From Pyrococcus sp. NA2 (GTDB taxonomy: Archaea > Methanobacteriota_B > Thermococci > Thermococcales > Thermococcaceae), in contig NC_015474.1 of NCBI RefSeq assembly GCF_000211475.1, positions 744,001-808,000 of the forward strand: DNA of 64,000 bases, written 5' to 3'. Position 1 is the first letter of the stretch. Every line of letters begins with the position of its first letter. This document shows positions 42,986 through 46,641 of the stretch, piece by piece. The notes under the pieces were generated by a model. The model did no database searches. It saw only the letters and a program-made list of their open reading frames with translations, and was not told the origin of the DNA. Position numbers and translations under genes: made by a program.

Positions 42986-43056
42986 TGCCATCAAACCTAT
43001 ATTAATTGGTTAAAGTTTAAAAGAGTGTATCCCTCACAAATCCATGGGTGCGAGAG

Positions 43057-44277
43057 ATGATACTTCAAGTTGCTCTTGATTTAACTGACATAGAACAGGC
43101 GATTTCTATTGCAGAGAAAGCTGCTCGTGGAGGAGCACATTGGCTTGAGGTTGGAACTCCTTTGATAAAGAAAGAGGGCATGAGAGCTGTCGAACTTTTG
43201 AAGAGAAGGTTCCCAGATAGAAAGATCGTGGCTGACCTTAAGACAATGGACACTGGAGCCTTGGAGGTTGAGATGGCCGCTAGACACGGAGCTGACGTTG
43301 TTTCAATCCTAGGAGTTGCTGATGATAAAACGATAAAGGATGCATTGGCAGTTGCCAGGAGGTACGGGATAAAAATAATGGTGGATCTAATTGGGGTCAA
43401 GGATAAAGTTCAGAGAGCTAAAGAACTTGAGGAAATGGGCGTTCATTACATTCTAGTTCACACTGGAATAGATGAGCAAGCTCAGGGAAAAACTCCTCTT
43501 GAGGATCTAGAAAAGGTTGTAAAGGCTGTTAAAGTACCTGTAGCTGTGGCAGGTGGCTTAAATTTAGAGACAATACCAAAAGTCATAGAGCTTGGAGCGA
43601 CGATAGTAGTTGTTGGAAGTGCTATAACGAAGGCAAAAGATCCTGAAGAAGTTACCAGGAAGATAATTGATCTGTTCTGGGACGAATACATGAGAACAAT
43701 AAGGAAGGCGATGAAGGACATAACGGAGCACATAGAGGAGGTGGCGGATAAGCTGAAACTCGAGGAAGTGAGAGGTTTAGTGGATGCCATGATTGGGGCG
43801 AACAAGATATTCATATACGGGGCTGGAAGGAGTGGGCTAGTGGGGAAGGCATTCGCAATGAGATTGATGCACCTTGACTTTAACGTTTACGTCGTTGGTG
43901 AGACGATTACGCCAGCATTTGAGGAGGGCGATCTGCTAATAGCGATAAGTGGTTCTGGTGAGACCAAGACGATAGTTGATGCGGCTGAAATAGCGAAGCA
44001 GCAGGGAGGAAAGGTAGTGGCAATAACCTCATATAGAAATTCAACCCTTGGAAAACTTGCAGACATAGTCGTTGAGATCCCAGGAAGAACTAAAACAGAT
44101 GTTCCCACGGATTACATAGCGAGACAGATGCTAACAAAGTATAAGTGGACGGCACCCATGGGAACTCTCTTCGAAGACTCCACAATGGTCTTCCTCGATG
44201 GCGTAATAGCATTACTAATGGCAACATTCCAGAAGACGGAGAAGGACATGAGGAGGAAGCATGCAACTCTCGAATGA
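43057..44277 (+). CDS. 3-hexulose-6-phosphate synthase / 6-phospho-3-hexuloisomerase fusion
   Basis: Bifunctional enzyme of the ribulose monophosphate pathway, which Thermococcales use in reverse to make ribulose-5-P from fructose-6-P because they lack the oxidative pentose phosphate pathway. The 406 residues comprise an HPS domain (about 1-210, OMP decarboxylase-like barrel with DLKTMDTG) and a PHI domain (about 220-406, SIS fold with IYGAGRSGLV and AISGSGET). ATG 43057 follows GGGTGCGAGAG; the upstream GTG is part of that site. Supplies pentose for the PRPP synthase at 54744. Confidence 0.95.
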   Translation: MILQVALDLTDIEQAISIAEKAARGGAHWLEVGTPLIKKEGMRAVELLKRRFPDRKIVADLKTMDTGALEVEMAARHGADVVSILGVADDKTIKDALAVARRYGIKIMVDLIGVKDKVQRAKELEEMGVHYILVHTGIDEQAQGKTPLEDLEKVVKAVKVPVAVAGGLNLETIPKVIELGATIVVVGSAITKAKDPEEVTRKIIDLFWDEYMRTIRKAMKDITEHIEEVADKLKLEEVRGLVDAMIGANKIFIYGAGRSGLVGKAFAMRLMHLDFNVYVVGETITPAFEEGDLLIAISGSGETKTIVDAAEIAKQQGGKVVAITSYRNSTLGKLADIVVEIPGRTKTDVPTDYIARQMLTKYKWTAPMGTLFEDSTMVFLDGVIALLMATFQKTEKDMRRKHATLE

Positions 44278-44303
44278 CTCCTTTAATTTTTGGAGGCAAC
44301 TGG

Positions 44304-45047
44304 ATGAGGCCCATTTTCATAGGGATAGGGGGGCAGGGAAATAAGATAACATTTGGGATAAACTACGGAAACTGTAAGAAGGTCTACATAAATCCAACAG
44401 GTTACATATTTTCCCGTCAGATGTTCCTTAAAAAGCTTGAAGAACTCCTGTGGAACATCAAAAAGAACTCAACGCTATGGTTAATTTTTGAACTCAAGCA
44501 GGTAAACCTTGAAATAGTTATGGAGATAATTGAAAGAGCACCTTCAGATTTGATGAAATTTGCATACGTTCTCTCTCCCGGAAAGGAGTTGGTTCTAGAA
44601 GGTAAACCTTATTGGGCTGAGGGATTTGAGACTGTTTTTTATGACTCTTTATGGGAGTTCCTCAAAGGCAAGGAAAAGAAGCCGGTATGGCAGGCCTATG
44701 GAGAAGCAACGTTATCCATCAGTAGAATGTTCACGAAGCTCTACAACTATCTTGATTCTCAGATGCTCGTGAATGTTGACTTTGCTGACTTTCTTCAAAT
44801 AACTAGGGGAGGTAACGTTGGGATACTAAGGTTATTAAATAGTGTGGACTTCGAATGGCACTGGGGAATATGGGAGAGGGGATTGGTCAACATACTCGCG
44901 AGTAATGATGTTTCACTGGAAAAAGTCATGGGGATCTTATCAAAATTCCAGGAGATCTTGAGGGAGAAGGATGTTATCTGGGGAGTTAAAATGGATGAAA
45001 ATGTTAGGGGAATAGAGATATTGGCACTCCTGGTGAAGAGATGGTGA
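44304..45047 (+). CDS. Degenerate FtsZ/tubulin-superfamily-like protein
   Basis: A 247-residue protein of unknown function. The start FIGIGGQGNKIT (residues 5-16) resembles the FtsZ T1 loop VGVGGAGNNAV, and NVDFADFLQITRGGNVGIL (157-175) resembles the FtsZ H10-S8 region NVDFADVRAVM; the end WGVKMDENVRGIEILALL resembles the last FtsZ strands. The GGGTGTG tubulin signature is missing and the N-terminal half is about 50 residues short, so GTP binding is doubtful. I conclude it is a decayed or repurposed FtsZ-like protein. ATG 44304 follows GGAGG. It overlaps the next HAD gene by seven bases. The similarity was judged by eye. Confidence 0.6.
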   Translation: MRPIFIGIGGQGNKITFGINYGNCKKVYINPTGYIFSRQMFLKKLEELLWNIKKNSTLWLIFELKQVNLEIVMEIIERAPSDLMKFAYVLSPGKELVLEGKPYWAEGFETVFYDSLWEFLKGKEKKPVWQAYGEATLSISRMFTKLYNYLDSQMLVNVDFADFLQITRGGNVGILRLLNSVDFEWHWGIWERGLVNILASNDVSLEKVMGILSKFQEILREKDVIWGVKMDENVRGIEILALLVKRW

Positions 45048-45694
45048 GGGCAATACTGTTTGACATAGATGAAACCCTCCTCTCCGAAAGGCCACTCGTA
45101 ATGTTCATGCTTCCCTTAGTGTATGATGAACTTTCAAGGAGGTTAGGGATCTCGAGAATGGAAGCGAGAAACATATTTCTCTCTGAAATAGAGAAGAAGA
45201 GAGGAACATATGAATGGCATGATTGGAACTATTTCTTCCGAAAGTTTAACCTTCCTTTCCGATATGAGGATTTCTTGATTGGATATCCAGAAAAGATAGA
45301 GGTTCTCCCTGGAGTTAAGGAAACGTTAGAGGATTTAAAAGGAAGGTATAAGCTGGGAATTGTTACGAGTGGGCCAAGGTATCAAGTGCTCAAACTGAAG
45401 ATCTCAGGTATCCTGAAATACTTCGATGTCGTTATTACAAGGGATGACGTAGGAACGGTAAAGCCAGATCCGAGGATATTCATTGCAGCACTTTCAAAGC
45501 TAAAAGTTCATCCTAAGGATGCGGTTATGGTTGGGGATAACCTTGAGCAGGACATCTTTGGGGCGAAAGCTCTTGGCATGAGAACTGTTTGGATAAATAG
45601 GAGGAAAATTGAAAAGAGTTATAACCTGCCAGATTTTGAAATATACTCGATCTCACAATTGGTGGAGGTGCTAGAGGATGAAGGTGATATTTGA
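45041..45694 (+). CDS. HAD-superfamily phosphatase
   Basis: A 217-residue HAD hydrolase of the phosphoglycolate phosphatase/YjjG kind: nucleophile motif DIDETLLS (about 8-15), helical C1 cap, motif II TSG (about 110-112), KPDP (motif III) and GDNLEQDIFGA (motif IV). Substrate unknown. It overlaps both the FtsZ-like gene upstream (7 bases) and the small gene downstream (17 bases), so the four genes 44304-46641 appear co-translated. Confidence 0.87.
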   Translation: MVRAILFDIDETLLSERPLVMFMLPLVYDELSRRLGISRMEARNIFLSEIEKKRGTYEWHDWNYFFRKFNLPFRYEDFLIGYPEKIEVLPGVKETLEDLKGRYKLGIVTSGPRYQVLKLKISGILKYFDVVITRDDVGTVKPDPRIFIAALSKLKVHPKDAVMVGDNLEQDIFGAKALGMRTVWINRRKIEKSYNLPDFEIYSISQLVEVLEDEGDI

Positions 45695-45863
45695 CAAAGA
45701 AGGTGTGTTCGTTGAGTACAAAGAGAAGAGAGTGAGAACTGTCAGAGACGACGAAATAGTCCACAGAGAAGAGAATCCAACGAGGCTCTGGTGGGAGCTA
45801 AAGGAGGCTGTAAAGGGTAAGAGGGTTAGGATCGTAGTTTATGAGGTGGAGAGTGGTGATTGA
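45678..45863 (+). CDS. Small conserved-context protein of unknown function
   Basis: A 61-residue protein I do not recognise. It is predicted to be mostly strand then helix, with many charged residues and the sequence NPTRLWWELKEAVKGKRVRIVV in the second half, seen from about residue 33. Preceded by GGTGCTAGAGG. It overlaps the HAD gene by 17 bases and the DUF4392 gene by 11, which supports it as a real member of this cluster. Confidence 0.6.
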   Translation: MKVIFDKEGVFVEYKEKRVRTVRDDEIVHREENPTRLWWELKEAVKGKRVRIVVYEVESGD

Positions 45864-46641
45864 TCACCTAATTGCAACGGATATAGGGGGTAGAGGGGTC
45901 GAGAGGCTATACCTATTATACAAGGCCAAGAGGCCAGATTACTTCCAGAGATCCTTGGAGATAATAAGTTCTGCCAAGAGAATCTTAATAGTCTCAGATT
46001 TTCCAATACCTCCTTCGATGATTCCGGAAACTGATGGTCCTCCTGGGGCTGTAGCTTTGGCTCTCGCCTTAAAAGACCTTGGAAAGAGGGCAATAATTCT
46101 AACCCAAGAACTCGTTAAGATTGGCATAGAGGATTTTTATCAAGAAGTTATCACTGAAATGCCTAAAACAAACGAGTTCGATTGTTTGATAAGTGTGGAA
46201 ACTCCTGGAAGGAACTATAAAGGAAAATACCTATCGTTCTCAGGTCTCGAAATCAGGGTTAGGGAGTATGACAGGCTATTTATGGAAGCCTTGGAGATGG
46301 GGATACCGACGATAGGGATTGGAGATGGAGGTAACGAGATAGGGATGGGAAATTTAGAGCTTAGGGATGAGAGATACTCGGTAGTTAAGGCTAGCGAAGT
46401 TATAATTGCGGGCGTGTCAAATTGGGGTGCCTATGGACTTGTTGCTGGATTGTCGATTGAAAACGGTGTTAACCTTCTGAAGGATTATGACGAAGGAGAA
46501 GTGTTGAAGTCACTAGTTAATGCTGGTCTAATAGATGGGATAACAAAGAAGAATGAGCCAAGTGTTGATGGACTCCCAAGCTCGATTCATGAAAGGATGT
46601 TAAAGTTGCTGAACGAGATAATTAACGTAAAAATTCAGTGA
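45853..46641 (+). CDS. DUF4392 protein, D-glutamate cyclase-like
   Basis: A roughly 262-residue protein with the family motif GIGDGGNEIGMGN (about 154-166) and ETDGPPGAVALA near residue 60. DUF4392 is related to the C-terminal domain of mammalian D-glutamate cyclase, but the archaeal function is not known to me. The start is ambiguous: ATG 45841, GTG 45853 and GTG 45856 are in frame; GAGGTG at 45843-45848 favours one of the GTGs. Overlaps the convergent HD-domain gene by 20 bases. Confidence 0.75.
   Translation: MVIDHLIATDIGGRGVERLYLLYKAKRPDYFQRSLEIISSAKRILIVSDFPIPPSMIPETDGPPGAVALALALKDLGKRAIILTQELVKIGIEDFYQEVITEMPKTNEFDCLISVETPGRNYKGKYLSFSGLEIRVREYDRLFMEALEMGIPTIGIGDGGNEIGMGNLELRDERYSVVKASEVIIAGVSNWGAYGLVAGLSIENGVNLLKDYDEGEVLKSLVNAGLIDGITKKNEPSVDGLPSSIHERMLKLLNEIINVKIQ

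Follow-up and report, generated by a model that had tools for sequence, protein, structure and literature searches.

Archaeal proteins of the tubulin superfamily were surveyed in 2023 across 183 species by JackHMMER searches starting from H. volcanii proteins, with FtsZ1, FtsZ2 and CetZ emerging as the main families, at least one CetZ in every species of the Thermococcales and, in just two strains, a further divergent protein (PMC9856176). An earlier study, published in 2010, noted that some archaeal FtsZ paralogues without important motifs were still obscure and described two divergent families, FtsZl1 and FtsZl2, both of which keep the GTP-binding loop GGGTG(S/T)G; in FtsZl1 neither T6-H7 nor the FtsZ C-terminal domain was found and there is a coiled coil with a helical C-terminal domain, while FtsZl2 has an alpha/beta C-terminal region of about 300 aa (PMC2875224). 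The way in which two FtsZ subunits share one active site is known from S. aureus FtsZ, where N208, D210 and D213 of the T7 loop work on the nucleotide that the next subunit holds, D210 swinging to place the catalytic water, D213 forming part of the environment of this water and N208 touching the metal sphere, and where D46, Q48, G72 and R143 are part of the subunit that bears the nucleotide (PMC8936486). The regulation and disassembly of the archaeal FtsZ ring are largely open questions, and we describe here a deletable candidate, a shortened FtsZ-like protein without the GTP pocket that we refer to as pseudo-FtsZ.

The gene lies in a 64,000-nucleotide stretch of the Pyrococcus sp. NA2 chromosome (the window, to which all coordinates refer) and belongs to the following cluster.

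43048..44277, + strand: HPS-PHI, bifunctional 3-hexulose-6-phosphate synthase / 6-phospho-3-hexuloisomerase (NF041755, above cut-off)
44292..44296, + strand: ribosome-binding site GGAGG, 7 nt 5' of the pseudo-FtsZ ATG
44304..45047, + strand: pseudo-FtsZ coding sequence from the ORF call, 247 aa, ATG at 44304 and stop at 45045-45047
45041..45694, + strand: HAD-IA hydrolase of the TIGR02253 subfamily, downstream cluster gene, in 20/20 loci
45678..45863, + strand: 61-aa orphan protein, cluster gene, in 20/20 loci
45841..46641, + strand: D-glutamate cyclase-like protein (PF14336), next cluster gene, in 18/20 loci

The reading frame is the one given in the initial annotation, which had also placed it in an overlapping three-gene chain; the overlap with the HAD gene stands (7 nt), but the upstream one does not, as HPS-PHI ends 26 nt before the pseudo-FtsZ start in a junction that is tight and without overlap. 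The linkage to the HAD gene that had been singled out is likewise real, but it is the whole cluster that is linked and not HAD alone. HPS-PHI is found upstream of pseudo-FtsZ in 20/20 loci (in one of these, L091, the HPS-PHI match is ∼0.8 kb further upstream), and the order HPS-PHI, pseudo-FtsZ, HAD, 61-aa orphan is kept in all 20, which come from six genera. Identities are 87-96 % for HPS-PHI versus 46-73 % for pseudo-FtsZ. The neighbours are metabolic and there are no division genes in the cluster; the 61-aa orphan gave no match in the family searches. This orphan, which sits between the HAD and D-glutamate-cyclase-like genes, has 58-80 % identity across the 20 loci. In one genome (G017, locus L017) the HPS-PHI and pseudo-FtsZ frames are fused into a single open frame of 662 codons, probably through a sequencing frameshift in HPS-PHI. 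The strand opposite the pseudo-FtsZ ORF contains many stops in the same frame. At four other loci (L119, L121, L135, L144) the opposite strand is also stop-free across the whole gene, which we take as a composition effect.

Members of the Thermococcaceae are heat-loving archaea, and pseudo-FtsZ was found in 89 of 94 genomes of this family with E < 1e-77, one of the 89 being truncated at the edge of a contig. In the remaining five HPS-PHI is also absent (3) or cut by a contig end (2), so that assembly gaps are the likely reason for the missing cases. Four sister families (21 genomes) gave weak matches to ORFs of FtsZ length or none, and no match at E <= 1e-10 was obtained in two other archaeal phyla (23 and 152 genomes); as far as we searched, pseudo-FtsZ is restricted to the Thermococcaceae. 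Since it occurs in nearly all genomes of the family and not in two strains, it does not fit the account of the extra divergent protein in the 2023 survey. A scan of the genome contigs gave one pseudo-FtsZ locus, and the other family members came from searches of whole genomes. The genome to which the window belongs also encodes FtsZ1, FtsZ2, CetZ and SepF. A second copy in a near-complete genome (G111; locus L103, G111:C2:360700-361900) was set aside; it is broken and 90-99 % identical to the genes of other species, and is therefore contamination or a recent transfer, not a paralogue.

Single-sequence searches are too insensitive to detect pseudo-FtsZ. Against Pfam, NCBIfam and the PDB these returned FtsZ matches below threshold only, namely PF12327 (E = 0.022; 15.5 bits against a curated cut-off of 27), TIGR00065 (E = 0.036; 13.4 against 295.2) and M. 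jannaschii FtsZ (E = 0.12), all three of which agree on the family and on the region. Two further hits, DUF6990 (E = 0.17) and DptG (E = 0.79), were rejected as chance-level matches that the family profile does not support. Because the single-sequence matches are sub-threshold, family profiles were needed. The profile, built on an alignment of 31 members, matches M. jannaschii FtsZ in the PDB across H7-T7 and S8-H10-S9 (E = 2.8e-7) and, in its own genome, FtsZ2 as the closest match outside the family (E = 1.5e-9); in profile-profile comparison with 27 FtsZ/CetZ sequences the full length is aligned with a probability of 97-98 %. When the 31 members were scanned singly, 13 matched FtsZ_C, with a best E of 4.7e-4. 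The similarity to FtsZ thus exceeds chance.

An AlphaFold model (pLDDT 87, pTM 0.88) has the fold of the FtsZ/tubulin superfamily, with a Rossmann-type N-terminal domain, an H7 core helix and a C-terminal domain. The best 50 matches of a fold search against the PDB are all FtsZ, with E between 8.6e-13 and 1e-10; the TM scores (query) of 0.62-0.74 come with a high RMSD of 5-6 Å and sequence identities of 12-17 %, values such as a very divergent FtsZ member would be expected to give. The initial annotation of a shortened FtsZ/tubulin-like protein is therefore borne out by profile searches, by profile-profile alignment and by a predicted FtsZ-like core. In a tree pseudo-FtsZ forms a separate clade (100/100) on a stem of 4.75 changes per column and does not group with CetZ; it could not be placed inside FtsZ, and its position beside FtsZ2 is without support (48/0). 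The stem is too long for the tree to settle where the clade attaches among FtsZ1, FtsZ2 and CetZ. We regard it as nearly certain that pseudo-FtsZ is a divergent protein of the FtsZ superfamily that is without the canonical GTP site and is under selection.

The elements that are kept, lost and gained are listed below, with residue counts that rest on 91 family members.

44322..44339, + strand: GIGGQG, residues 7-12, remnant of the T1 loop; GxGxxG in 89/90 members covering the site
44490..44507, + strand: ELKQVN, residues 63-68, aligned with FtsZ T4 GGGTGTG by profile-profile comparison; glycine loop replaced and shortened, N68 invariant
44637..44648, + strand: FYDS, residues 112-115, T6 region; a new motif, invariant in 91/91
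44709..44711, + strand: residue 136, where FtsZ H7 has its guanine-binding Asp; 91/91 have Ser/Ala/Thr/Gly and never Asp
44772..44789, + strand: NVDFAD, residues 157-162, T7 catalytic (synergy) loop; N157, D159, A161 and D162 invariant in 91/91
44856..44873, + strand: WHWGIW, residues 185-190, family-specific Trp motif in place of FtsZ H9; W185, W187, G188 and W190 invariant
44967..44984, + strand: KDVIWG, residues 222-227, S9 strand, matching IIWG of M. jannaschii FtsZ; IWG in 91/91

The presence of GIGGQG and NVDFAD and the loss of GGGTGTG, first noticed in the single sequence, hold for the orthologues found across the Thermococcaceae, GGGTGTG occurring in 0/91 members. The T1-to-T7 distance is 147-154 residues, compared with 189-197 in FtsZ1, FtsZ2 and CetZ of the same genome, so that the N-terminal domain is shorter by ∼40-47 residues; a loss had been correctly recognized, and its size, put at about 50, is revised accordingly. 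Alignments with FtsZ and CetZ show that the T3 loop is deleted, and the C-terminal tail is absent, pseudo-FtsZ ending at FtsZ strand S10. If the adjoining N-T-D-A-Q motif in the paralogues is taken as a guide, the positions that would align with D46 and Q48 of S. aureus FtsZ mostly carry Ala/Ser/Gly/Thr and Tyr. With these changes pseudo-FtsZ is predicted not to bind GTP. Two segments of pseudo-FtsZ stand out as the most conserved, and T7 (residues 153-162) is one of them, with a mean column entropy of 0.32 bits where the protein as a whole has 1.22. Residues 157-170 (NVDFADFLQITRGG) had initially been assigned to H10-S8, which is wrong; they form the T7 loop and the start of H8, and because residues 157-162 are the catalytic loop the likely mechanism changes.

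To judge from these residues, what pseudo-FtsZ retains of the shared active site is the half directed at the neighbouring subunit, and what it has lost is the half that holds a subunit's own nucleotide. The case for a cap or activator of FtsZ rests mainly on this pattern; it is a reading that we favor tentatively and at somewhat less than even confidence, in which pseudo-FtsZ would dock on the nucleotide face of FtsZ and stimulate hydrolysis or block growth. Pseudo-FtsZ would then be a pseudo-GTPase that retains one of the two FtsZ assembly faces, having an intact T7 loop, the element with which an FtsZ subunit enters the GTP site next to it and sets the hydrolytic water in place, while the pocket for a nucleotide of its own would be gone, namely T3, T4, the T2 residues matching S. 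aureus D46/Q48 and the guanine-binding Asp. We infer that the T7 face could dock on the GTP-bearing face of an FtsZ that is either free or the end subunit of a filament, that the docked protein may act as a GAP, stimulating GTP hydrolysis, or as a cap, blocking subunit addition, that among the candidate partners encoded in the genome (FtsZ1, FtsZ2, CetZ and SepF) FtsZ2, the nearest to pseudo-FtsZ, is the most likely one, and that expression from the pentose-making HPS-PHI cluster might tie the protein to the carbon/nucleotide state of the cell. Because the GTP face is absent no further subunit could build on pseudo-FtsZ, and FtsZ itself would have given rise to a cap or chain terminator that tunes division. 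The complete scheme, a one-faced regulator of FtsZ origin with T7-triggered hydrolysis, filament termination and division tied to carbon/nucleotide supply through a pentose-synthesis cluster, is unlikely to be correct in every part. Several points count against a cap. The T7 residues might have been retained for folding, the gene adjoins metabolic and not division genes, and the placement beside FtsZ2 in the tree is the unsupported one noted above.

A further point against the cap is the conservation of the old nucleotide side. The most conserved stretch of the protein, FETVFYDSLW (residues 108-117, window 44625-44654, + strand), lies there in the T6 region, so this side is not simply dead; since W59, N68, P92, E95, L96, P102 and W104 are new invariants as well, it has its own function, one for which the cap model gives no reason, and it may bind another ligand or partner. 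This new invariant motif, FYDS, makes repurposing for another ligand a serious rival, although to us a possible rather than a probable one. According to this explanation the FtsZ fold is a stable core, the old pocket binds a different ligand (for example a sugar phosphate or another nucleotide) or a partner from the cluster, and the protein serves the HPS-PHI/HAD/cyclase pathway with no contact to FtsZ filaments. It accounts well for FETVFYDSLW lying on the old nucleotide side together with the GxGxxG loop and the other new invariants, and for the very stable linkage, in 20/20 loci, to metabolic genes in a cluster that has no division gene. It accounts poorly for the T7 N-D-D triad, which is frozen in 91/91 members even though T3, T4, the guanine Asp and the T2 residues have been lost.

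By analogy with gamma-tubulin, pseudo-FtsZ could also nucleate a mixed filament, or be an obligate minor component of one, and promote assembly of FtsZ or CetZ. The retained FtsZ fold and T7 face, and universal presence in the Thermococcaceae, would be in keeping with such a role, which is nevertheless improbable; the top-face elements needed for building on (T3, T4 and the H2-H3 region) are deleted, so that a nucleator could occupy one end only, and the C-terminal tail for a membrane anchor is absent. That the gene is the decaying remnant of a duplicated FtsZ, or an ORF that is open by chance, as short length and the absent hallmark motif could suggest, has next to no probability and is excluded by strong purifying selection and conserved synteny, the frame being open in 91/91 copies, the start context conserved, 52 columns invariant among 31 sequences and pairwise dN/dS far below 1 (0.02-0.11 over the dS range from 0.2 to 1.6, saturated pairs and one near-identical pair being set aside); the initial annotation was thus right to regard the gene as functioning.

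No published description of pseudo-FtsZ, or of a pseudo-GTPase FtsZ, was found in what was mainly openly accessible literature without supplementary tables, and it may have been listed before as an uncharacterised arCOG or FtsZ-like protein. The apparent novelty is a fourth archaeal member of the tubulin superfamily, without the GTP pocket, in practically every Thermococcaceae genome. Should the one-faced logic of the cap or activator be true, a pseudo-GTPase derived from FtsZ would contribute to a shared active site nothing but its activating half, and FtsZ filaments may have in pseudo-FtsZ an intrinsic cap or brake.

Compared with archaeal FtsZ1 and FtsZ2 (TIGR00065, PF00091 + PF12327), pseudo-FtsZ has the same order of elements, S1-H1-S2 ... 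H7-T7-H8 ... S8-H10-S9-S10, and shares T1 GxGxxG, T7 NxDxAD and IWG of strand S9, but it is without T3, T4 GGGTGTG, the guanine Asp and the C-terminal tail, has the short WHWGIW in place of H9 and scores far under the family cut-offs. Thermococcales CetZ is likewise a tubulin-superfamily paralogue present throughout the order, but adjoins pilus genes (PMC9856176) where pseudo-FtsZ is found beside HPS-PHI. CetZ has GGGTGAG and lacks the T7 Asn (TLDASD), and pseudo-FtsZ, which is much shorter, branches apart from it with a very long stem. FtsZl1 and FtsZl2 are also divergent families of the FtsZ superfamily; the GTP-binding loop that they keep is absent in the 91 pseudo-FtsZ members, and the FtsZl1 pattern is the reverse of the one described here. 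ARC3 of chloroplasts contains an FtsZ-derived domain, and the bacterial proteins SulA and MciZ, which have no homology to FtsZ, attach to the T7/C-terminal side of FtsZ. The likeness of pseudo-FtsZ to these three proteins would be a conceptual one, that of limiting FtsZ assembly at a filament end or subunit (ARC3 is an inhibitor of FtsZ-ring assembly, PMC13335998), but the face bound by SulA and MciZ is opposite to the FtsZ face on which we propose that pseudo-FtsZ may dock.
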